64,000 nt of DNA from assembly GCA_021083345.1 (NCBI GenBank), contig JAJGRE010000002.1, positions 434,001 to 498,000 on the forward strand, read 5' to 3'. The notes under the pieces are model-generated. The model had not been told where the DNA came from, searched no databases, and worked only from the letters and a program-made list of their open reading frames with translations. Positions 7,790-62,033 of the stretch are shown in pieces. The stretch is from Calditrichales bacterium MX18-03. GTDB taxonomy: Bacteria; Bacillota; Clostridia; Lutisporales; Lutisporaceae. The translations under genes and the position numbers were made by a program. The number at the start of each line of letters is the position of its first letter. The stretch's first letter is position 1.

Positions 7790-8836
7790 TTATGCGCTAA
7801 AGCTGTTGTCTCCGCTGATTTCACCAGTAACCGGCTTCTTGAGGTAATTGACCACAAAGGCTGTAACCGTGACACCTACCAATACAGCGATGATAAACAT
7901 CAGCCTGTTGTCTACCACGGGCAGGACGATGGGACCGCCGTGGGGAGCATGGTCGCCGACTTTGCCGATTGCTGCTACTGCAGCTCCAATGGCTGAACCG
8001 AACATGATGGACGGAATAACCTTCAACGGATCACCGGCTGCAAAAGGAATGGCGCCTTCGGTAATACCGATCATACCCATGGCCAGGGCACCGTAGCCTG
8101 CATCTTTTTCTGTCTCCGTATACTTGTTGGGGGCCAATAAAGTTGCCAGACCCATGCCAAGCGGCGGAACACAGATTGCCACTGCAACCGGACCCATAAC
8201 GGTGAAAACACCTTCACTGATCATTGCCGCACCAAACATAAAGGCAACCTTGTTGACCGGTCCGCCCATGTCGAAGGCAATCATGGCACCCATGATCAAG
8301 GCCAACACTACTGCATTGCCCATGCTCATGGCTTTCAGCCAATCCGTCATGGCTGTCATCAAATTACTGATAGGAGTTCCTATAACGTATATCATAAGTC
8401 CGCCTACTGCCAGAGAGGTCAGAATCGGGATAACAAATATCGGCATAACGGGTTTCAATTGCTTTGGAACCTTCCAGCCCTTGATCCATCTTGCTATATA
8501 GCCTGCAATAAAACCGGCAATAATTCCGCCTAAGAAGCCTGCCTTGACATTACCGGCCAGAACACCGCCCACCAGGCCAGGTGCAATACCGGGACGGTCT
8601 GCAATGGCGTAAGCGATAAAGCCAGCAAGCACCGGCACCATCATTGAAAAAGCAGCAACACCGATGTTCAGCATGTTAACCAGCATGGGATTGGTTACAT
8701 TGGCACCTTTTCCAGCTTCGACGCCGCTCAGGGCGATGGAAAAAGCAATCAGCACACCGCCGATGACGACGATGGGTATCATGTACGAAACACCTGTCAT
8801 TAAATACACACGGATTCTTTTCAATTCTTCCTTCAT
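7790..8836 (-). CDS. PTS fructose-type EIIC membrane permease
   Basis: A 348-residue multi-helix membrane protein. The N-terminus LMTGVSYMIPIVVIGGVLIAFSIAL and signatures such as MGGPVNKVAF, GMIGITEGAIPFA and PHGGPIVLPVVDNRL are those of the fructose EIIC family. It forms the sugar channel, phosphorylating fructose or a related hexose during import. It lies between EIIA (23 nt upstream) and EIIB in one operon. The substrate could be fructose, mannose or a similar sugar; the neighbouring manA makes mannose or fructose plausible. Confidence 0.9.
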   Translation of the reverse strand: MKEELKRIRVYLMTGVSYMIPIVVIGGVLIAFSIALSGVEAGKGANVTNPMLVNMLNIGVAAFSMMVPVLAGFIAYAIADRPGIAPGLVGGVLAGNVKAGFLGGIIAGFIAGYIARWIKGWKVPKQLKPVMPIFVIPILTSLAVGGLMIYVIGTPISNLMTAMTDWLKAMSMGNAVVLALIMGAMIAFDMGGPVNKVAFMFGAAMISEGVFTVMGPVAVAICVPPLGMGLATLLAPNKYTETEKDAGYGALAMGMIGITEGAIPFAAGDPLKVIPSIMFGSAIGAAVAAIGKVGDHAPHGGPIVLPVVDNRLMFIIAVLVGVTVTAFVVNYLKKPVTGEISGDNSFSA

Positions 8837-12499: not shown

Positions 12500-13888
12500 T
12501 TATTTTCGAGGTATTGTTACGTTGAAGGCTGTCCCTTCTCCAGGCTTGCTGTCCACAGAAATGCTGCCCTTATGGGAGTCCACAATAGTCTTTGCAATTG
12601 TCAATCCGATACCGGAGCCGCCGGTGATCCTGCTCCTGGATTTATCTGCCCTGTAAAACCTTTCGAATATATGTGGCAGATCCTCCTGTCCTATCCCCAC
12701 GCCGGTATCTCTGATTTCAAAGCTGACACTGTTGGAAGCCTCCGTTACCTTTATAAAGACGCTTCCATCTTTGGGTGTGAACTTCAATGCATTAGCTATC
12801 AGGTTGATCAGCACCTGGCTTATTTTGTCCTTGTCCGCTTCTATTTCAGCTTTAGCCGCATCGATGCGAACCGTAATATTTTTCGTCATATAGTCTTTTT
12901 CAAAATTCAGCAGGATGGATTTGGTCAATTCCGTCAAATCAAATACCTGTTTATTAAGAATAATGTTTTCACTCTCATACTTGGCCAGCTTTTCCAAGTC
13001 TCCCACCATTCTGCCGATGCGCAGTATCTCTTCATGACAGCTTTTCAGGCGTTTCGAATCCGGCTGCCAGATCCCATCAATCATGGCCTCCATATGGCTC
13101 TGAAGGGTTGCCAGCGGTGTCCTGAGCTCATGGGCCACATCCGCTGTCAGCCTCTTTCTCAGAAGCTCCTGTTTTTCCAATGTATCGGCCATATTGTTTA
13201 CGGTGGTCACCAACTGGTTGATTTCCTTGATACTGGAGGTTTCGCTGCTCCGGTCCCCGAAATACCCCTTGGATATCATCTGCGCTGTATTGATGACCCT
13301 GGATATCGGATTGGACAGCTGCTTTGCCATCAAGTAACCCAGTACCAATGCAAAAACCAGCGCCAGGAAGCCGACACCTACAAAAGCTTTATTCAGAGTA
13401 TTGATAAAAGCCAGATCCCGTTCATTGAAAAAGAAAGGTCCATAATATCCGATATTGACATGGCCGACGGTATCCGTGCCATAGGTCAAAGGATAGCTGT
13501 TTTCCTTATACTCGCCCTTCCAGTTGGGATATCTGCTCATCATATTGCGGCTCATTTGGTCCATCATCCGTTCACACAATCCATAGTTATATTCTGTAGC
13601 GTTCCAGATTGTATCCCCTTTAAGGTCCATTACTTCAATGATCATGCCGTTTTCCAGCGCGTAAACGCCGATGTCCTGAATAAATTCCTTCTTCCACTTG
13701 CCTTCACCCAGGTACTGCTGATTGATGAGCGTAACCACTTCTTTGTTCTGTTTCTCCTGATTCTGTATCACATAGCTCCTGAATTGTTTCTCCAGGGAAT
13801 AGTTGGCGATGATGCCCACAAGCACCATGCAAACCAGTGCTATTAAAATATATGAAAGAGACAGCCTGTTGCGCAGACTAAATTTCAT
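12500..13888 (-). CDS. Sensor histidine kinase 1
   Basis: A 462-residue membrane kinase. It starts at 13888 (MKFSLRNRLSLSY), just after the response regulator stop. Order: helix (about 12-30), an extracytoplasmic sensor domain of about 135 residues, a second helix (about 165-190), HAMP, HisKA with DVAHELRTPLAT, and HATPase_c with NALKFTP, DTGVGIG and GGSGIGLTI. The sensor domain contains MMSRYPNWKG and GYYGPF, shared with the second kinase at 53088-54482. It is co-transcribed with the response regulator and lies in the same direction behind an HMA-SafE fusion gene. A copper-type signal is an inference from that setting. Confidence 0.88.
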   Translation of the reverse strand: MKFSLRNRLSLSYILIALVCMVLVGIIANYSLEKQFRSYVIQNQEKQNKEVVTLINQQYLGEGKWKKEFIQDIGVYALENGMIIEVMDLKGDTIWNATEYNYGLCERMMDQMSRNMMSRYPNWKGEYKENSYPLTYGTDTVGHVNIGYYGPFFFNERDLAFINTLNKAFVGVGFLALVFALVLGYLMAKQLSNPISRVINTAQMISKGYFGDRSSETSSIKEINQLVTTVNNMADTLEKQELLRKRLTADVAHELRTPLATLQSHMEAMIDGIWQPDSKRLKSCHEEILRIGRMVGDLEKLAKYESENIILNKQVFDLTELTKSILLNFEKDYMTKNITVRIDAAKAEIEADKDKISQVLINLIANALKFTPKDGSVFIKVTEASNSVSFEIRDTGVGIGQEDLPHIFERFYRADKSRSRITGGSGIGLTIAKTIVDSHKGSISVDSKPGEGTAFNVTIPRK

Positions 13889-13889
13889 C

Positions 13890-14591
13890 TTATTCACCGC
13901 CAAACTTATATCCGATACCATATGCCGTCAGGATATACCTGGGGTTTTTGGCATCCGGCTCAATTTTCTGCCGCAGGTTTTTCACATGGGTATCAATGGT
14001 TCTGTCGTATCCCTCGTAATCCTCCCCCAACACCAGGCAGATCAGTTCTTCACGGGTAAATGCCTTTTGAGGGTACTTGACCAGACTCAACAGTATTTTA
14101 TACTCATTGGGGGTCAGGCTCACCGGTTCCCCGTTCTTCTGCACCTCGTGCCGGAGCGTATCTACCACCAATTCCCCTTGATTGAAGTTAAAAACGTTGA
14201 CCAGTGCCGCCTTTTCATCCTCTGTTCTTCGGAGCTGCGCCGCTGCGCGTGCCACCAGCTGTCTGGGGCTGAAGGGCTTTGTAACATAATCATCCGCACC
14301 GATTCCCAGACCATTCAGAATGTGTTCCTCCTCCACCTTTGCCGTCAGCATGATGATGGGGACCCTGGACTTCTTCCTTATCGTCCTGCAAATCTCTTCT
14401 CCGGATATATCCGGCAGCATCAGATCCAGAATGACAAGCGAGGGATTGACCCTGTCAAATAATGACAAAGCCGTTTTACCGTCAAAGGCATCATATACCT
14501 TGTAGCCGCTATTCTCAAGATAGGATTTCACGACCTCAACGATTTTCTCCTCATCATCAACCAGTAGAATACCGGATTGGTTTTCCTTCAT
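13890..14591 (-). CDS. OmpR-family response regulator 1
   Basis: A 233-residue regulator. The receiver domain carries LLVDDEE, the phospho-accepting Asp in LVILDLMLPD, MLTAK and TKPFSPRQL; the C-terminal winged helix reads LTPNEYKILLSL and TIDTHVKNLRQKIE. It is paralogous to the regulator at 54483-55184 over its whole length. Members of this subfamily bind direct repeats spaced by one helical turn, which is the architecture of the eleven repeats described in the findings. Its stop is 2 nt from the kinase start. Confidence 0.9.
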   Translation of the reverse strand: MKENQSGILLVDDEEKIVEVVKSYLENSGYKVYDAFDGKTALSLFDRVNPSLVILDLMLPDISGEEICRTIRKKSRVPIIMLTAKVEEEHILNGLGIGADDYVTKPFSPRQLVARAAAQLRRTEDEKAALVNVFNFNQGELVVDTLRHEVQKNGEPVSLTPNEYKILLSLVKYPQKAFTREELICLVLGEDYEGYDRTIDTHVKNLRQKIEPDAKNPRYILTAYGIGYKFGGE

Positions 14592-45340: not shown

Positions 45341-45763
45341 TTACATCATTCCGTTCATCATATCCATCATCATTCCGCCGGAGCCGCCTTGCGGCATGCT
45401 GCCCATATTATTCATGCTATTCATTCCGCCCATATTCATCATGCCCATACCGTTCATGTTCATCATGCCCATACCGTTCATGTTCATGCCGCCATTCATA
45501 TTCATACCACCCTGCATGTTCATGCTACCATTCATAGGCATCATGTTCATATTACCGTTCATGGGCATTCCATTCATGTTCATATTACCGTTCATGGGCA
45601 TTCCATTCATGTTTATATTGCCATACATGGGCATCCCATTCATGTTCATACTTGAGTAGTTAGCATAGGCATTGAAGTAACTGATACCCCATAATACCGA
45701 GAAGCTGAGCACAATGCCTACCAGCGCTATTCCCGCAAGCTTTAACCATGGATTTCTATTCAT
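45341..45763 (-). CDS. Met-rich membrane-anchored protein
   Basis: A 140-residue protein; start at 45763 (MNRNPWLKLAGIALVG) set by GAGGAGG. One helix (about 8-30), then a nearly pure Met/Asn/Gly extracytoplasmic tail built from repeats of the type NMNGMPMNG and NGMGMM. Over a third of the tail is Met. It is a likely Cu(I)/Ag(I) binding sponge. It follows the zinc-ribbon gene 45808-46221 by 44 nt, as does the pair at 62312-63112. Confidence 0.8.
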   Translation of the reverse strand: MNRNPWLKLAGIALVGIVLSFSVLWGISYFNAYANYSSMNMNGMPMYGNINMNGMPMNGNMNMNGMPMNGNMNMMPMNGSMNMQGGMNMNGGMNMNGMGMMNMNGMGMMNMGGMNSMNNMGSMPQGGSGGMMMDMMNGMM

Positions 45764-45807
45764 CTTGATGACCTCCTCACATTTTTGTTCTAAGTTCGGT
45801 ATTCTGC

Positions 45808-46221
45808 TTATGCCGTTTTGACTTCTAGTTCTTTTCCGCAGTACGGACATACCTTCCAATCCGTGCTTACTTCCTTGCCGCATATGCTGCATGCCGCTGT
45901 GTTCGCTCTACTCTTGCCCCTCAAGGTATTCCTCATAGCTTCGACATCATCGGAAGTAAAAATGTTATTTTTTATCCACACGAAAAGCCCTGCTATAAAC
46001 GCAATCACAAATACGACAAACAAAAACTTTATGAGCAGCAGCAACAGGGAAGTTGCAGAGAAACCATAACCCAATCCGTACATATGTCCACCTCCTATAT
46101 TACCTCTATAACCAAAGCTCATACCTGTTCCTATTCCAAACAGCAACGTCTGCAGAAGCCAAAGGCCCAAAATTGCTATTGCAAGGACCGCAATCAGTCT
46201 GAAAAGCCAATTTCCCTTCAT
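45808..46221 (-). CDS. Membrane zinc-ribbon protein, sigma-54-type operon
   Basis: A 137-residue protein starting at 46221 (MKGNWLFRLIAVLAIAILGL) after AAAGGAGGTG. Helix 1, a Gly-rich loop (GGGHMYGLGYGF), helix 2, then ACSICGKEVSTDWKVCPYCGKE, a zinc ribbon. The paralogue at 62699-63112 shares size and layout. It is first in an operon with the Met-rich gene. A consensus sigma-54 promoter lies 46 nt upstream. Confidence 0.8.
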   Translation of the reverse strand: MKGNWLFRLIAVLAIAILGLWLLQTLLFGIGTGMSFGYRGNIGGGHMYGLGYGFSATSLLLLLIKFLFVVFVIAFIAGLFVWIKNNIFTSDDVEAMRNTLRGKSRANTAACSICGKEVSTDWKVCPYCGKELEVKTA

Positions 46222-46509: not shown

Positions 46510-46542
46510 ATCATACAGCTTAAATATGCAGATTTTATGGAG
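46510..46542 (-). promoter_or_regulatory. Direct-repeat operator/promoter (site e)
   Basis: On the minus strand CTCCATAAAATCTGCATAT (46542-46524), 8 nt, TATGAT (46515-46510). The next gene on this strand is the zinc-ribbon gene 290 nt away, with the sigma-54 promoter in between, so that operon may have two kinds of control. Confidence 0.65.
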
Positions 46543-53087: not shown

Positions 53088-54482
53088 CTATTCAGCGCTC
53101 TGCGGCAGGTGTATAATGAATTCCGTACCTTCTCCCAATATGCTTAGAACGGCAACCGTCCCTTTGTGCGCTTCAATTATTGCCTTCACGATGGTCAAGC
53201 CGATGCCGGAACCCCCTGTCATCCTGTTTCTGGATTTATCCGCACGGTAAAACCTTTCAAATATATGCTCAATATCGTCCTTGGAGATACCCAAACCGCT
53301 GTCTTTCACTCTGATAACGGTTTCAGATCCTTCTCTGGCCGTGCTGATTTCAACGTTGCCGCCTTCATTGGTGTATTTAAGCGCATTGGACAGCAGATTC
53401 ACCAGCACCTGGCTGATCTTGTCCCGGTCAGCATAAAGCATCTGCATTTCACCCTGGTAGCTGATTCTTATGCGTTTGCTGAAAAACTCGTTCTCAAAAT
53501 TCTGCAGTATTCGCTTAATCAGCTCCGTGATATCAAAATCCGATTTATTCAATATCAGGCTCTCACTTTCGTACCTGGAAAGCTTTTCAATATCACCCAC
53601 CATCCTATTCAGCCGCATGGTCTCCTCATGGCAGCTTCTCAGGGTTTCCTCATCCGCTTCCATCACAGCATCTATCATTGCCTCCAAATGGCTTTGCAGA
53701 ATAGCAAGCGGGGTTCTGAGCTCATGGGCAACATCTGCAGTCAGCCTTTTTCTCAGGCTTTCCTGGTTCTGCAGCGTTCCAGCCAAGCCGTTGACTGTTT
53801 CGATCAATTCGCTGAGCTCCTTGGTGTTTGACCTTTCGAAGCTTCTGTCGGAATAATAGCCTTTGGCTATGGAGCGTGCTGTGTGTATTACACGGACAAT
53901 GGGGCGGGATAAGCGGTTTGACATAATGACGCCGAATATTAACGCGATAAACAGGGAAAACAGGCCGACACCCATATGCGCCTTATTAAGCGTATTTATA
54001 AACAGTAAATCGTTATCCGTGTAATAAAAAGGGCCATAGTACCCGATATCAACCGTTCCGATGCTTTCTCCGCCTGCAGTCAGTGAAAAGCTGTTTTCCA
54101 GAAATCCGCCCTTCCAATTGGGATAGCGGCTGATCATATTTTCCGAAAGATGTGCGATAATCTGCTCACACCGGCCGTTATTATAAGTCATCGCATCCCA
54201 GACCGGTTTGCCGGCGCTGTCATTTATCTTAATGATCAAACCTTGCTCCAATGCACTTATGCCAATATTTTGTATCACGCCGGTCTCCCATTTTCCGTCT
54301 GCTTCATATTGTTTTTCTATCATATCCACAATTCTGCTGTTTTTTTGTTCCTGATTCTGCATGACATAGTACCTGAACTGCTTTTCCAAAAAGAAATTTG
54401 AAACGATACTGATCAGAAAAACGCATATGGCCGCAACTGCAATGTGTGAAAGGGATAGCTTCGTTCTCAGACTATGCTTCAT
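53088..54482 (-). CDS. Sensor histidine kinase 2
   Basis: A 464-residue paralogue of kinase 1 (12500). Helix (about 12-32), sensor domain with MISRYPNWKGGF and GYYGPFYY, second helix (about 165-188), HAMP, HisKA (DVAHELRTPLAI), HATPase_c (NALKYTN, DSGLGIS, GGSGIGLTI). The start at 54482 directly follows the regulator stop (TAAATG). It belongs to an operon with an HMA protein, fitting a copper-type sensor. Confidence 0.88.
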   Translation of the reverse strand: MKHSLRTKLSLSHIAVAAICVFLISIVSNFFLEKQFRYYVMQNQEQKNSRIVDMIEKQYEADGKWETGVIQNIGISALEQGLIIKINDSAGKPVWDAMTYNNGRCEQIIAHLSENMISRYPNWKGGFLENSFSLTAGGESIGTVDIGYYGPFYYTDNDLLFINTLNKAHMGVGLFSLFIALIFGVIMSNRLSRPIVRVIHTARSIAKGYYSDRSFERSNTKELSELIETVNGLAGTLQNQESLRKRLTADVAHELRTPLAILQSHLEAMIDAVMEADEETLRSCHEETMRLNRMVGDIEKLSRYESESLILNKSDFDITELIKRILQNFENEFFSKRIRISYQGEMQMLYADRDKISQVLVNLLSNALKYTNEGGNVEISTAREGSETVIRVKDSGLGISKDDIEHIFERFYRADKSRNRMTGGSGIGLTIVKAIIEAHKGTVAVLSILGEGTEFIIHLPQSAE

Positions 54483-55184
54483 TTAATCACCACCAAACCG
54501 GTATCCTACACCATGTACCGTCAGGATATAACATGGCGTTTTGGGATCTGTTTCGATCTTCTGTCTTAGGTTTTTAATATGTGAGTCAATGGTGCGGTCA
54601 AACCCATAAAAGTCTTCGCCTAAAGCGATGGTAATCAGTTCATCCCTGGTAAATACCTTTTGAGGGTATTTGACCAGGGTTGTCAGAATTTTATATTCAT
54701 TGGGCGTCAGATTAAGGACTTCTCCCTGCTTCTTGACCTCATGCTTCTGATAATTGATAATCAAGTCCTCATTATAAAAAGATAGGGTGTTGCACAACGG
54801 CACGATATCTTCTGCGCTTCTTCTGATCAATGCTGCGATGCGTGCTACCAATTGCCTGGGGCTGAAAGGCTTGGTCATGTAATCATCAGCACCGATGTCG
54901 AGCCCCTTCAGAATATCCTCTTCCTCAATTTTTGCAGTCAACATGATAATCGGTACGCGCGACTTTTTTCGCAGCCGTTTGCAGACATCTTCACCCGGGA
55001 CATCCGGCAGCATCAAATCCAAAATAACCAATGCCGGATTTACTTTCTCAAAAAGCTGCAAGGCTTGTTCCCCGTTATAGGCCTCATATGTAACATAACC
55101 GCAGTTTTTCAGATATGACTTGATGACGGTTACAATTTTCTCTTCATCGTCTACAATCAACACCTTTATTTCACTTGGCTGCAT
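54483..55184 (-). CDS. OmpR-family response regulator 2
   Basis: A 233-residue regulator: LIVDDEEK, Asp in LVILDLMLPD, MLTAK, TKPFSPRQL, and a winged helix with LTPNEYKILTTL and TIDSHIKNLRQKIE. Its operon (HMA protein, this gene, kinase 2) has operator site f1 upstream, so it is likely autoregulated. It is the best candidate to bind the direct repeats. Confidence 0.9.
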   Translation of the reverse strand: MQPSEIKVLIVDDEEKIVTVIKSYLKNCGYVTYEAYNGEQALQLFEKVNPALVILDLMLPDVPGEDVCKRLRKKSRVPIIMLTAKIEEEDILKGLDIGADDYMTKPFSPRQLVARIAALIRRSAEDIVPLCNTLSFYNEDLIINYQKHEVKKQGEVLNLTPNEYKILTTLVKYPQKVFTRDELITIALGEDFYGFDRTIDSHIKNLRQKIETDPKTPCYILTVHGVGYRFGGD

Positions 55185-55199
55185 ATACTCACTCCTCTG

Positions 55200-55559
55200 C
55201 TAAAATCTTGCAACACCATTGGCCAGTAACAGCAGGACCGTACCGGCCAGGCCGATGCAAAGCGCCCATTTCAAGGCTTTCTTAGTCCTATGCCTGCCCT
55301 TCGGCATTTTTGAATCATGGAGATGATTAAACTCTTCCATGGTCAGTGGCGTAAAGCCCTTAAACCGTATAATTTGTTTCAATTCTTCCAGACTTATGCG
55401 GTTTACATCAAAGGCTACGTATATTTTCGAAGTATCAAGGCTTGCTGTAACCTCTTTCACACCTTGGATGATTCCCAATGCGCTTTCGATTCTGTTCCCA
55501 CAGCTTGTACTCGTCATCCCTGTGACAGGGATAACTTCCTTAATCATTCTTGTTTCCAT
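55200..55559 (-). CDS. HMA-like protein with altered metal motif and a membrane anchor
   Basis: A 119-residue protein, start at 55559 (METRMIKEVIPVTGMTSTSC). An HMA-like fold (residues 5-72) reads GMTSTSCGNRIESAL: the first Cys of CxxC is Ser17, leaving only Cys20. A basic linker (KGRHRTKKALKW) leads to one C-terminal helix (about 96-114). It might be a sensor partner or a crippled chaperone. It is the first gene of the two-component operon. Confidence 0.8.
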   Translation of the reverse strand: METRMIKEVIPVTGMTSTSCGNRIESALGIIQGVKEVTASLDTSKIYVAFDVNRISLEELKQIIRFKGFTPLTMEEFNHLHDSKMPKGRHRTKKALKWALCIGLAGTVLLLLANGVARF

Positions 55560-55611
55560 ACTACCGCTCCATTCCATTCCTATTTGCAATGAAGTCGCTC
55601 CTAGTGATCTT

Positions 55612-55644
55612 ATCATAACAAGAAATTATGGAGATTTTATGACG
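55612..55644 (-). promoter_or_regulatory. Direct-repeat operator/promoter (site f1)
   Basis: On the minus strand CGTCATAAAATCTCCATAA (55644-55626), 8 nt, TATGAT (55617-55612). It drives the HMA-regulator-kinase operon. Confidence 0.8.
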
Positions 55645-55671
55645 AATTAAGAATAGTATTTGTCCTGTTTT

Positions 55672-55704
55672 CTTCATAAAATCTCCATAATTTTTACATA
55701 TAAT
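55672..55704 (+). promoter_or_regulatory. Direct-repeat operator/promoter (site f2)
   Basis: On the plus strand CTTCATAAAATCTCCATAA (55672-55690), 8 nt, perfect TATAAT (55699-55704). No gene follows on this strand; a terminator ends at 55768, giving a predicted short RNA. Confidence 0.8.
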
Positions 55705-55710
55705 AAAAAC

Positions 55711-55768
55711 AGTGCTAATATTTTTTTCAAACTTTCTCCCCATTGTCTTTCGCAATGGGGTCTTTTTT
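55711..55768 (+). ncRNA. Candidate small RNA, about 58 nt
   Basis: Start predicted from the -10 element of site f2; end at the terminator CCCCATTG-(loop)-CAATGGGG-TCTTTTTT (55738-55767). The body has no open frame of useful length. An exposed CTTTCTCCCC could pair with Shine-Dalgarno sequences. It is inferred only from promoter and terminator. Confidence 0.5.
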
Positions 55769-55786
55769 ATATGGCTCTATAAAGCA

Positions 55787-55808
55787 AATGCCGCTCTTAA
55801 GCGGCATT
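55787..55808. terminator. Terminator after the DUF2318 gene
   Basis: AAATGCCGCT pairs with AGCGGCATTT, T-rich on both sides; it lies just beyond the stop at 55812 on the minus strand. Confidence 0.65.
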
Positions 55809-55811
55809 TTT

Positions 55812-56354
55812 CTACTTTTTCCATTTTTTGAAGTATTCACTGTTGTCTGATAAAAAGGCCTTGGAAATGACGATTTTTTCACTGTCCTCCGTTTTGTTTT
55901 CAGACATTACAGGTACCGGATTACAGCCATTCTTGATTTTTTCTATGTCATCAATCCGGAATACATTACCACAGTTCTGGCAGACCACTTTGTCTCCCTG
56001 CTGCTCGTAGTAACCGCGCCCTGAATCAAAGCATACCTGACAAGTGTTAAGTGCCGTTCTTACCGTACCGTCACTTGCCTTCACAGCGATGACCTCCATG
56101 TAGATTCCATCTGCTTTGTAAGGATAAAACTTAACCTTTTCCGTTACTTCACTTTTTTGAATCGTTAAATCTTCGCTGCTGCCTGCCGCATTATTCTGCT
56201 CTTGTGTTATTTCACCCTCGGCAGCAGCTTGCTTCCCATCTGCATTTTTGAAAGTAAAAATCAAAATGACTGCGACAAGGAGGATGCCTGCAAGCATTAT
56301 ACCCTTATTGATGCCCGACTTTTTTTGCGCCTTATTTTTATTCTGTTTACTCAT
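55812..56354 (-). CDS. DUF2318 (FtrD-like) membrane-anchored protein
   Basis: A 180-residue protein with one N-terminal helix (about 19-37), a linker, and a domain containing TALNTCQVCFDSGRGYYEQQ and CQNCGNVFRIDDI. The paired CxxC motifs are those of DUF2318/FtrD-like proteins, found with iron- or copper-uptake and cupredoxin systems. It has operator site g upstream and stands alone between copper clusters. Confidence 0.85.
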   Translation of the reverse strand: MSKQNKNKAQKKSGINKGIMLAGILLVAVILIFTFKNADGKQAAAEGEITQEQNNAAGSSEDLTIQKSEVTEKVKFYPYKADGIYMEVIAVKASDGTVRTALNTCQVCFDSGRGYYEQQGDKVVCQNCGNVFRIDDIEKIKNGCNPVPVMSENKTEDSEKIVISKAFLSDNSEYFKKWKK

Positions 56355-56390: not shown

Positions 56391-56423
56391 ACTATAACAG
56401 GTATTTATGAAGATTTTATGAAG
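56391..56423 (-). promoter_or_regulatory. Direct-repeat operator/promoter (site g)
   Basis: On the minus strand CTTCATAAAATCTTCATAA (56423-56405), 8 nt, TATAGT (56396-56391), ahead of the DUF2318 gene. The repeat is identical to site b. Confidence 0.8.
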
Positions 56424-56479: not shown

Positions 56480-58147
56480 TTATTCAGGTTTGTTGACCGG
56501 GTTATTGGGATCCGGTTTATATACTGATTCAAAGTCCGTATATATCACAGCTTGCATCATGCCTGCCGACGCATGGTGCAATTCGTGGCAGTGCTGCACC
56601 CAGTTACCGGTATTGTCTGCATTGAAGGCTACTTCATACGCCTCTCCAGGCTTGATCAACAGCGTATCCTTGATTATTGCCGCACCAGTCAGAGGCATTC
56701 CATTCCTGGAAAGCACCTGGAAGAAGTGGCCGTGCAGATGCATCGGATGATCCACCTGGCTGTTGTTGATATAAGTAAGCTTCACCACATCTCCTGTCTT
56801 GACCTGAAGCGGCGGTAATTCCTTGAAGACCTTTCCGTTAATTGTATATTTCAGGGTGTTGTCCGCCGTATCAGTTCCCAGTTCAACCCGCTGGTCCACA
56901 GAATAGCTTTGCTCAAGGCTGAATTTACCTGTTCCCGGACTGCCGTAATTAAAGAGATTAAACACTGGAAATTCGGCAATCAGAGGCTCACTTACCCTAT
57001 TGCCGGTTCCATCCGTCACATTAAAGGGGATCTTTAACTGATCGTTATATGCGTTGTCATCATGAGCGTCGATTACAAAGCTGTCACCTGAAGCAACGGT
57101 AAATTCAACATCGTATCGTTCTCCGGGCGCTATCATGATAATCTGATCCTTTATCAAAGTTGCATCGTTGATATCTTGTCCATCGGTACTTACGACCTTT
57201 ATATCCTGTCCCGGAATATGAATGCCATGGGTCCGGTAGCCTGCATTGATGAACCGCAAATGGACCACTTCACCAACCTTGGCTTCAAGCGGTGTTATCA
57301 GCTCGGCTGATTTTCCGTTTACCGTATAGATGTCATACATATAGGCCATCATTTGCTCCTCTTCCATAACCTGATCACCGCCGGCTGCCGGCATTGTCAT
57401 GACGCTATGGCTGCTGTCTGTCGAAGCCGACATATCCGTTCCGTTGTGTCCGCCTGTTTCGCTGTCTCCGCCCACACCCGCCTCGGGATTTGACATCCAC
57501 TCGTCCAGTATCAGCGAGTAATCCCTGTCTATCCTTCCTTGATCCGCCGGCTCTACGATAAGTGCCCCATAGAGCCCCTTATCCACTTGCTTTGCACTCT
57601 CCTGGTGGGAATGATACCAATAGGTACCCGGTACATCCGCAGAAAATTCATAGACAAAAGTTTCACCTGGACCTACTGCATCCTGATTAAGCCCGGGTAC
57701 GCCGTCCATTGCACTCTTCAGCGGGTATCCGTGCCAGTGGATGGTTACAGGTTCTCTAAGATTGTTTTTCAGTTCAACCTGCACAAAATCCCCTTGCTTT
57801 ACCCGAATCTCGGGACCGGGAACATTTCCGTTAAAGGTCCAGGCTGCCATGCTCATGCCATCCTTCAGCCGGATATTGGTTTCAAGTGCTGTCATTTTAA
57901 ACTGTTTTATAGGTTGTCCCTGCCTTGGCTTCACTATCCCTCTTGCATAGTCATGCTTACCGGCTTTTGCAGCATCTGCCGGCGTTCCGGACATGTTATG
58001 CGGATTGCTGACCGGCGTAGCCGTCTCGCTTTGCTGTACAGCAGCTTGTCTGCTGTACAGCATTTGCGTCCGGTTAAAGGTTATCACTGCAAAAACAACC
58101 ACCACCGCTGCAATCAAAGCCAAAATAATGATTAATCGATTGCCCAT
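56480..58147 (-). CDS. Multicopper oxidase
   Basis: A 555-residue secreted or anchored oxidase: an N-terminal helix (5-25), then three cupredoxin domains. All four ligand motifs are present: HWHG, HSHQ (YWYHSHQESA), HPMHLHGHFF and WVQHCHELHHASAGMM. So type 1, 2 and 3 copper sites should be complete. A Met-rich loop (VMTMPAAGGDQVMEEEQMMAYM) interrupts domain 2, as in cuprous oxidases such as CueO. It probably oxidises Cu(I). It is last in cluster II, starting 4 nt after the Met-rich gene stop and with no clear ribosome site, so it depends on coupling. Confidence 0.92.
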   Translation of the reverse strand: MGNRLIIILALIAAVVVVFAVITFNRTQMLYSRQAAVQQSETATPVSNPHNMSGTPADAAKAGKHDYARGIVKPRQGQPIKQFKMTALETNIRLKDGMSMAAWTFNGNVPGPEIRVKQGDFVQVELKNNLREPVTIHWHGYPLKSAMDGVPGLNQDAVGPGETFVYEFSADVPGTYWYHSHQESAKQVDKGLYGALIVEPADQGRIDRDYSLILDEWMSNPEAGVGGDSETGGHNGTDMSASTDSSHSVMTMPAAGGDQVMEEEQMMAYMYDIYTVNGKSAELITPLEAKVGEVVHLRFINAGYRTHGIHIPGQDIKVVSTDGQDINDATLIKDQIIMIAPGERYDVEFTVASGDSFVIDAHDDNAYNDQLKIPFNVTDGTGNRVSEPLIAEFPVFNLFNYGSPGTGKFSLEQSYSVDQRVELGTDTADNTLKYTINGKVFKELPPLQVKTGDVVKLTYINNSQVDHPMHLHGHFFQVLSRNGMPLTGAAIIKDTLLIKPGEAYEVAFNADNTGNWVQHCHELHHASAGMMQAVIYTDFESVYKPDPNNPVNKPE

Positions 58148-58151
58148 GGCT

Positions 58152-58862
58152 CTACATCATGCCCATTCCGCCGCCTGAGCCGCCGCTCATTGAGCCGGAA
58201 CCGCCACTCATAGAGCCACCGCTCTGGGGCATGCTGTTCTGCATCATATTGATCTGCTGCTGCATCATCATCATTTGCTGCTGCATTTGGTTCATCATCT
58301 GCATCATTTGCATTTCATTGGGCATCCCCATACCGTTCATCGGCATGTTACTCTGCATTGGCATATTCATACCGTTCATTGGCATATTGCCCTGCATTGG
58401 CATATTCATACCATTCATCGGCATGTTACCCTGCATATTGCCCATTTGCATATTGCCGTTCATGTTCATATTTCCCTGAGTGCTCATACCACCTTGCATG
58501 TTCACCCCTTGCATGTTCATATTTGCCATATTGTTTTGCTGCATCGCCTGTTGCTGCATTTGTGCATTGTAGCCGCCCAAGCTGCTGTTTGATATCAATC
58601 CCAGCACCGCCATGCTGACCAATATGCCTATGAAAGAGAAAACTGCCAATTTAAACCATCCATTGTTTGCCATAATAAAACCTCCTAAATTTTTATTCAT
58701 AGATCTGTTATTATTTTTCATAACCGTTTGTCCTGGCTTTTTACTGCTTCCCCGGCTTGTGATAAAGCCGATGAATCCCCACAAGGCCAGACCGGAACCC
58801 AGAAATAAAAGCACCAGCAGGACAAACATATACAACTGACCCAGCGAGCCCAGAATACTCAT
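58152..58862 (-). CDS. Met-rich membrane protein, cluster II
   Basis: A 236-residue frame starting at 58862 (MSILGSLGQLYMFV) after AAGGAG. Layout matches the cluster I gene: helix 1 and a basic linker (about 1-58), then MANNGWFKLAVFSFIGILVS (helix 2) preceded by AGGAGG and ATG at about 58671, and a Met/Gln/Asn tail with repeated MNGMNMPMQGNM. The internal start again suggests two products from one frame. Confidence 0.8.
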   Translation of the reverse strand: MSILGSLGQLYMFVLLVLLFLGSGLALWGFIGFITSRGSSKKPGQTVMKNNNRSMNKNLGGFIMANNGWFKLAVFSFIGILVSMAVLGLISNSSLGGYNAQMQQQAMQQNNMANMNMQGVNMQGGMSTQGNMNMNGNMQMGNMQGNMPMNGMNMPMQGNMPMNGMNMPMQSNMPMNGMGMPNEMQMMQMMNQMQQQMMMMQQQINMMQNSMPQSGGSMSGGSGSMSGGSGGGMGMM

Positions 58863-58874
58863 TTGTTTCACTCC

Positions 58875-60689: not shown

Positions 60690-61949
60690 TCATGCCTTTC
60701 GTGACGGGGAGGTTTTCAGCAAGCTGAATACATAACCTAGAATTCCGAGAATGAAGATTGTCACGAAGATGACCAATACGATACTGATTACAGACTGCAG
60801 ATTAAGATTGCTGAACAAATTGCCATACAAACCGGCAGATGGTGCTGTTGCATGGTTCATGACTGAAGCGTCTGCTGCTGCAGTATTCACAGAGTTAATG
60901 TAAGTCTGCGCGGTATTGGCTGTCAGTATCGCTTGCTTCGTCAGGCTATCGCCCAACAGGTTCAGCGCCGCTACGCCGTTAGCCAGCTTATAAATGCTCT
61001 GATGGATCTTGCCCATCCGCTCTTTGTCATATACCAAACCGTTCTGGGATATATAGGGGTTGAGATTAACCAGATTTGCCGACTCGTTGATATAATTCAG
61101 CGCCTGGCTTAATTTGTTTTTGCTCTGTAAGGTCAATGTATATTGGTTTGCATAGTATTGAGCCGGGTTCAACACATTGACGCTGGCATTTTCAGCCTGC
61201 ATGATAAACTCATTTTTCAGCTGATCCAAAAGCTGCATACCCACCGCTAACTTATACAAACCGGAATGCAGCTGTTCCATTTTGGCCGGATCATATTTTG
61301 TTCCCATATCCATCGTCGTGCTCATTGTGCTGCTGTCAGGCTGCGCCATGGTTGTATTGCTGTTCTGCGGGAATATGTTGATGGTGGTATTTCCCTGCAC
61401 TCCCGGTATCTGCGTTGCACCCGGCTGGATACCTGGCAGTGCGGCACCTGCTGCCTGTGCTCCGTTTTGCCCTGTCATACCGCTCATATCCGGCATGCTC
61501 ATGTTGCTGTCGTTACTTGCAACTGCTGCTTCACTGACTGCATAGGGATCCAAAGTCATCAACTCAACGGCTTCTTTCAGAGCAGCGATAGCACCGTCCA
61601 GATTGTCCTTATTCTTGATTGCCAATGCGGTTATCTCCGTGGCCGCACTTAAGCCTGGCTGCCCATTGACGTTCTGCTGCGCATTGCTGTTCTGTCCACT
61701 GTTTGCAGTACCATGCTGCATTCCTTGTTGTGTGTTGCTTGCCGTACCATCCTGCGAACCCGGTTGATTCTGAGCCGCATTCGTATTGGTATTAGCCGGC
61801 TGTACGGACTGTTCAGCCTGAGCGGTATTGTTTCCCATTCCCGCATGACTAAGATCAGGGTTCAGATAGCTGTAACCGATATACCCAAGTCCGCCGAATA
61901 TTACGATGAGCAAAACAAATACTAAAAAACCGTTAATGAATTTTATCAT
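60690..61949 (-). CDS. Membrane-anchored repeat protein, cluster II
   Basis: A 419-residue protein; start at 61949 (MIKFINGFLVFVLLIVIFGG) set by GGGGGAATGC, rather than a start 54 nt upstream. N-terminal helix, Gln/Asn-rich linker, then two units of the type NKxxLxxAIxxLKEA-EL-xxDPYA ... MEQLHSGLYKLAVGMQLL and a C-terminal helix near 395-415. It matches 39696-40856 and opens cluster II behind site h. Confidence 0.77.
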   Translation of the reverse strand: MIKFINGFLVFVLLIVIFGGLGYIGYSYLNPDLSHAGMGNNTAQAEQSVQPANTNTNAAQNQPGSQDGTASNTQQGMQHGTANSGQNSNAQQNVNGQPGLSAATEITALAIKNKDNLDGAIAALKEAVELMTLDPYAVSEAAVASNDSNMSMPDMSGMTGQNGAQAAGAALPGIQPGATQIPGVQGNTTINIFPQNSNTTMAQPDSSTMSTTMDMGTKYDPAKMEQLHSGLYKLAVGMQLLDQLKNEFIMQAENASVNVLNPAQYYANQYTLTLQSKNKLSQALNYINESANLVNLNPYISQNGLVYDKERMGKIHQSIYKLANGVAALNLLGDSLTKQAILTANTAQTYINSVNTAAADASVMNHATAPSAGLYGNLFSNLNLQSVISIVLVIFVTIFILGILGYVFSLLKTSPSRKA

Positions 61950-62033
61950 TGTGCATTCCCCCTTTTTTCTTTTTTCATTTTTCAATGACTTCCAGGAAAA
62001 CAATAACGATGCACGTCTTTCACCGATGCTTCC

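Follow-up and report, generated by a model that had tools for sequence, protein, structure and literature searches.

The copper regulon encoded in the window (the 64,000-nt stretch of DNA analysed here, from a member of the Lutisporaceae) probably includes a small regulatory RNA, as predicted from a regulon-type promoter, termed f2, that is followed by a terminator and by no gene. The promoter lies on the plus strand in a gap of about 250 bases between two minus-strand units. In our preferred reading, to which we give about an even chance, f2 is the promoter of a trans-acting RNA of approximately 57 nt, which is activated by a copper two-component regulator and pairs with G-rich ribosome sites. 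The adjacent OmpR-type regulator, switched on by its kinase when copper (or silver) causes stress, would bind the tandem site in the -35 position and recruit RNA polymerase to the TATAAT. Transcription from f2 would end at the hairpin to give a noncoding RNA, which would probably act in trans through a pyrimidine- or C-rich stretch that pairs with G-rich ribosome sites, and through such pairing the copper regulon would gain a repressing arm. Accounts of copper regulons usually list efflux, oxidase, and chaperone genes. If the reading is true, a small RNA on the copper switch would enable the cell to reduce selected proteins under copper stress, much as iron-regulated RNAs do for iron. The features concerned are listed in Table 1.

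Table 1. Features of the f2 locus in the window and terminator-first units in the window and in other genomes.
Feature	Position	Strand	Remarks
Sensor histidine kinase	53088-54482	-	PF00512, PF02518
OmpR-type response regulator	54483-55184	-	PF00072, PF00486; presumed operator binder
Heavy-metal-associated (HMA) domain protein	55200-55555	-	PF00403; Pfam run on frame 55200-55616; start 55555 assumed
f1 operator	55625-55643	-	divergent from f2, ahead of the HMA, regulator, and kinase genes
f2 operator, TTCATAAAATCTCCATAAT	55673-55691	+	tandem site of 11-nt period; read as response-regulator binding site
-10 element, TATAAT	55699-55704	+	perfect; 7 nt downstream of f2 operator
Predicted small RNA	~55712-55768	+	~57 nt; no credible open frame
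C-rich stretch, CTTTCTCCCC	55732-55741	+	its CCCC forms the base of the terminator stem on the 5' side
Intrinsic terminator hairpin	55738-55760	+	T-run on plus strand
Second hairpin	55786-55809	+	terminator-like on plus strand, back-up stop for f2; from scan, plus strand only
FtrD-like membrane Fe-S protein	55812-56354	-	PF10080
Operator of FtrD gene	56404-56422	-	
Multicopper oxidase	56480-58147	-	PF07732, PF07731, PF00394
Terminator-first unit, f2		+	window
Terminator-first unit, G008 (L169)	9696	-	position of site
Terminator-first unit, G004 (L171)	11036	-	position of site
Terminator-first unit, G007 (L175)	8214	+	position of site
Terminator-first unit, G238 (L205)	1499	+	position of site; another family

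The genes of the regulon suggest copper as its signal. In the window, operator sites stand ahead of two P-type ATPases for copper (TIGR01511, above the cut-off) and a DsbD/HMA/cupredoxin fusion, and further sites precede a beta-propeller protein, an Fe-S protein, the HMA-regulator-kinase operon, FtrD, a zinc-ribbon gene, and the gene at 60690-62003. Such placement, ahead both of efflux genes for copper and of the regulator's own operon, is what is expected of a copper-responsive two-component regulon of the OmpR type. A regulator at least 50% identical was detected by tblastn in 20 of 50 stretches, among which three pairs overlap, and 19 of these 20 also contained FtrD or CopA. The assignment of the operator to the adjacent regulator appears to be a sound reading of these sequences. 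A second kinase/regulator pair is located at 12500-14591 on the minus strand, and its regulator (13890-14591) is 64% identical to that at 54483-55184; it could bind the same operators, and the two regulators may share them. The minus-strand frames at 45341-45892 and 58152-58871 contain methionine-rich repeats of the NMNMNGM type, belong to no Pfam family, and are perhaps copper-binding.

An operator with a perfect TATAAT had been reported at f2 in the earlier note, and both elements were confirmed. The operator word TTCATAAAATCTYCATAAW, with up to three mismatches, was found nine times in the window against 0.21 expected and 30 times genome-wide against 11 for the reversed control, and all five genome matches with up to two mismatches lay inside the window. 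A matrix of 41 columns was built from 17 sites of other genomes, mostly ahead of FtrD genes, and f2 (operator plus -10) scored 35.6, third among the ten window sites above 19, whereas the top score in first-order Markov sequences (n = 20) was 10.6. The 17 sites were first gathered by their likeness to the window's own operator word, so that only the -10 element, the spacing, and the recurrence before genes are independent of it. The spacing between operator and -10, which is fixed by the matrix, is the same in other regulon sites.

The start of the RNA was assumed to lie 8 nt after the -10 element. The terminator hairpin begins 33 nt past the TATAAT and consists of a 9-bp stem with five GC pairs and a 5-nt loop, followed by TCTTTTTTAT; a terminator 10-90 nt downstream on the same strand is found for 0.9-1.9% of window positions. 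The calculated folding energy of the predicted 57-nt RNA was -13.7 kcal/mol (z -4.84), and none of 200 shuffles was equally good. On the opposite strand no T-run directly follows the hairpin, and thus the terminator serves the plus strand. Because the flanking HMA-regulator-kinase operon and FtrD are both on the minus strand, the plus-strand promoter and terminator are explained by no gene, which bears out the earlier description of a stretch with no gene and a terminator downstream. A peptide encoded by the RNA was considered and rejected: the sole frame over the RNA start (GTG 55712, 39 aa) runs through the terminator and has no ribosome site, since it begins at the assumed 5' end of the RNA. 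Rfam gave no match at the gathering level in the window and none in the f2 locus (L195) at E up to 1; three weak Rfam matches lie elsewhere, in L196.

Together, the promoter regions of f1 and f2 (55605-55711) make up an inverted repeat of 42 nt that is 81% complementary and includes both -10 regions; 23 nt separate its arms, and f2 may have originated by inverted duplication. A duplicated or cooperative operator would show such a repeat. On this ground, f2 could be the mirror half of a back-to-back autoregulatory region, in which the regulator bound to f1 and f2 controls the HMA-regulator-kinase operon, the plus-strand transcript is a by-product, and the terminator only blocks antisense transcription into FtrD. 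We consider this unlikely, because the G007 unit, which is likewise placed next to the regulator gene and divergent from it, has the RNA-side operator alone (the best opposite-strand score at 8060-8330 was -9.0), and because the promoter-terminator units of G004 and G008 are not beside the regulator gene. The place of f2 between two minus-strand units, pointing against them, would also suit an insulator against (or antisense to) readthrough from FtrD and the oxidase into the HMA-regulator-kinase operon, by which regulator synthesis is kept separate. Readthrough is plausible since the hairpin after the FtrD stop codon (the second hairpin of Table 1, read on the minus strand) has a poor tail, GCTTTATAG, and was not called by the terminator scan. 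In G007, however, the region upstream of the regulator gene, as far as L175:13000, contains no long minus-strand frame, and its frames of at least 90 aa are on the plus strand. We regard insulation as rather improbable.

The promoter-terminator layout that underlies the small-RNA reading recurs in relatives. Counting the window, 48 non-repeated sources yielded 62 distinct regulon sites with a score of at least 22 (L005, L006, L007, and L015, which repeat other records, were dropped, and identical sites were counted once). With a mechanical gene rule (a frame of at least 40 codons with a ribosome-site-like word), a gene start was found within 110 nt at 54 of the 62 sites. A terminator preceded any gene at five, four of them in the window's family, in which the NCBI taxonomy also places the genus Lutispora; these are f2 and the units of G008, G004, and G007, which represent three other genera. 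The remaining sites were two cut by the end of the stretch (L008 and L009) and one long leader, that of the minus-strand operator at 46523-46541. Its approximately 281 nt to the gene of a zinc-ribbon membrane protein (46220) are unusually long for the regulon; as no terminator was found before that gene, the site was taken as a long leader and dropped as a candidate second gene-less unit.

Six uncut sites lacked a gene start within 110 nt, and a terminator followed five of them. Intergenic DNA often has a terminator within 150 nt: under a loose rule that allows bulges, one was called at 56 of 600 random positions and at 199 of 1456 intergenic ones, and at 185 of 1085 when only intergenic positions lacking a gene start within 110 nt were taken. 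Compared with the last figure, five of six is moderately above chance. Without f2, which was given, and G238, which was found via a CCCC pattern, the recurrence is three of four (calculated by hand, about 0.02). When the gene rule is set at 45 codons, it is five of eight, the sites L170 2738 and L186 10530 then being without gene or terminator. By eye, a small protein gene starting MKSLKKMIDDFLKRL or MKKLKEIFDNFLKKL follows L170 2738 (plus strand) and L186 10530 (minus strand), respectively, and was missed at 45 codons. The frequency of loose-rule terminators (185/1085) would allow a spurious operator next to an unrelated hairpin, but the operator score is far above those of Markov sequences, the perfect -10 stands at the regulon spacing, and the arrangement recurs with C-runs in three other genera. 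Chance is thus the least probable of the explanations that we considered.

Strong FtrD matches were found in seven genomes of the family, and the layout in four of the seven; no unit was found in the scanned stretches of G002, G003, and G021, which have a strong FtrD match. A search pattern comprising the operator, the -10 element, and CCCC 12-42 nt on matched 4 of 22 family genomes, and the match was a real unit in three of the four; none of the 22 genomes is of the window's own genus. The gap limit of the pattern misses G008, which the matrix scan finds. The pattern also matched 1 of the 18 genomes behind the named loci, which was not a unit, and 15 of 391 class genomes, among which only the three family units and G238 passed inspection. 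When the -10 was placed one base too close, 4 of 391 genomes matched, none of them known units, and these matches served only as extra stretches in the matrix scan. One site in L204 (G082, score 26.0), for which no gene or terminator was found, is opposite a 362-codon frame and was taken as chance. An operator-like site in L203 (G161; 1576, minus strand, score 24.7) is followed by a C-rich leader hairpin (CCCACCCC/GGGGAGGG) and then by a CsoR-type repressor gene (PF02583); no terminator was found in this leader, and it was left out of the unit count. At L176 10222-10273 (G045), the operator ahead of FtrD has grown into a tandem array of 11-nt units.

Since a copper gene lies downstream of the units in G004 (FtrD) and G238 (an HMA/P-type ATPase gene), those two could be leaders. 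The G004 unit starts 163 nt ahead of FtrD and the G238 unit 189 nt ahead of a P-type ATPase with HMA domains, as might be expected if the promoter-terminator units were remnants or modules of leader attenuators, which normally stand before a copper gene and here stand without one. This explanation fits G004 and G238 better than f2, and as a general account it is very unlikely: in G004 another promoter-like site, with a matrix score of 22.0, intervenes between the terminator and the gene, a second promoter-like sequence was seen by eye in G238, no gene follows on the strand in G000, and the next gene in G007 has its own operator. The hairpin of the G008 unit lies directly against the end of a convergent gene.

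The RNAs predicted from the family units have a C-run in common. All four contain CCCC, whereas a single one of the 57 other regulon leaders, each of 70 nt, does (Fisher 9.6e-6; with f2 left out because it was given beforehand, 1.2e-4), and a mirrored autoregulatory region would leave this difference unexplained. None of the four RNAs was picked for CCCC in this analysis, and G238, which was found by the CCCC pattern, is outside both the count and the tests. YCCCC would be expected in 1-7% of 65-nt windows drawn from these sequences. The C-run sits within the terminator loop in G008 (unpaired probability 1.0), in a hairpin loop in G004 (0.79-0.93), in a mostly open 5' region in G007 (0.78), and mostly inside the terminator stem in G238. 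The f2 RNA includes the stretch CUUUCUCCCC, and the C-rich stretch claimed for it in the earlier note is present, but its CCCC is base-paired within the terminator stem (unpaired probability 0.00). In the predicted fold, this burial is the main weakness of the pairing idea for f2.

Apart from the C-run, the RNA bodies share little sequence, and their similarity is weak at best. The similarity between the RNAs of f2 and G238 was equalled by 8 of 300 shuffles, that between f2 and G008 (GCTAATA common to both) by 13 of 300, and that between G004 and G007 by 25 of 300; the remaining seven pairs gave at least 55 of 300. A DNA search of the 391 class genomes returned no homologue covering the RNA among the matches listed. 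Those at E up to 0.1 came from at least 293 genomes and were short and mostly AT-rich, and the longest other one among the matches listed had 61 of 116 bases. Conservation of the loop in relatives had been proposed as a check of the candidate; what three other genera share is the layout with C-rich RNAs.

Specific pairing with ribosome sites, as proposed for the f2 RNA beforehand, was not borne out. The complement of the seed plus four bases (14 nt) was searched in the RNA's own genome, allowing wobble and one mismatch, and gave 11 matches versus 12 for the reversed control, one of the 11 being the RNA's own other strand. None of the 11 genome-wide matches fell at a ribosome site. Five had no frame of at least 40 codons starting 6-25 nt on; three (L215, L217, and L218) fall within longer genes in the same frame, of 378, 811, and 631 codons, respectively, one (L216) within a 389-codon frame, and one (L214) opposite a 522-codon frame. 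Duplex energies were also calculated against start regions, of which a mechanical rule predicts 76 in the window; there, 74 of the 100 shuffles of the f2 seed did as well as the seed itself or better, and the corresponding numbers for the five stretches were 74, 68, 16, 23, and 54 of 100. The target prediction suggested in the earlier note therefore yielded neither a ribosome-site match in the genome nor an excess over the control, while the CCCC is paired and the energies are no better than those of shuffles. A short seed would escape both the complement test and the duplex-energy test.

The recurrence allows a wider proposal, which we put forward tentatively as possible but doubtful. The copper regulon of the family might have a repressing RNA arm: in no fewer than four genera, the regulator would switch on a short C-rich RNA, evolved repeatedly or diverged beyond recognition, which under copper stress would block translation at ribosome sites rich in G. 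The comparative pattern makes this idea testable in cultivable relatives.

A short RNA under the control of a two-component system is of a kind already known; no copper two-component small RNA of Clostridia was found in searches of the open-licence PMC literature. RoxS/RsaE, FsrA, and IsrR of Bacillus and Staphylococcus are described as binding mRNAs through C-rich regions, partly at ribosome sites, and FsrA and IsrR as iron-regulated (PMC8216469, PMC11257911). The f2 RNA resembles these RNAs in C-richness; FsrA and IsrR, however, are under Fur, whereas f2 would be under a copper two-component system. In Caulobacter, the regulon of UzcRS (U/Zn/Cu) contains one small RNA and ChvGI activates ChvR, both systems being copper-induced (PMC8224329), and thus a metal-linked two-component system with an RNA arm has precedent. 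Those systems are Gram-negative, and their regulons as described there comprise envelope stress and a TonB receptor rather than a copper efflux cluster. PdtaS/PdtaR and the PPE1-5' RNA of Mycobacterium tuberculosis form another two-component system linked to copper and a small RNA, which differs in that copper inhibits the kinase and the RNA binds the regulator (PMC8131098). Copper-affected small RNAs are also reported from Cupriavidus, where their role in the copper response is "insufficiently studied" according to the authors (PMC7563307).

The closest parallel is provided by the CiaRH csRNAs of Streptococcus, short RNAs from intergenic promoters that the response regulator activates via a direct repeat and that are followed by a terminator (PMC3091779). 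The csRNAs are described as poorly alike overall and as containing anti-Shine-Dalgarno sequences, and they were predicted from a regulator-activated intergenic promoter plus a terminator, 17 of 61 predictions then being seen on northern blots (PMC3091779). As in that description, f2 combines a direct-repeat promoter of the regulator with a terminator, and there is little sequence likeness between members; its intergenic promoter carries the direct repeat of its own regulon, not that of CiaR, together with a -10 element, and the predicted RNA of 57 nt falls within the 51-202 nt used for csRNAs. A copper-regulated small RNA resembling the streptococcal csRNAs is a likely prediction. The operators differ (TTTAAG-N5-TTTAAG for csRNAs versus CATAAAATCTYCATA for the f2 regulon), as do the regulons, that of f2 being for copper efflux. 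The f2 operator does not match the CiaR repeat NTTAAG-N5-TTTAAG (consensus as given in PMC3091779), an anti-Shine-Dalgarno sequence in an unpaired region is lacking (unpaired probability 0.00), and the nonamer [A/C]UCCUAAA[A/C] of most csRNAs was absent from f2 on reading; given these three differences, the f2 RNA is an analogue and not a member of the csRNAs. A CAU adjoins the C-run of f2, but it is on the 3' side and in the stem, which is the wrong order for pairing with one ribosome site and its AUG. The RNA of G008 (L169, 9696, minus strand) contains UUCCUAAAA, which agrees with eight of the nine letters of the csRNA nonamer, possibly by chance.
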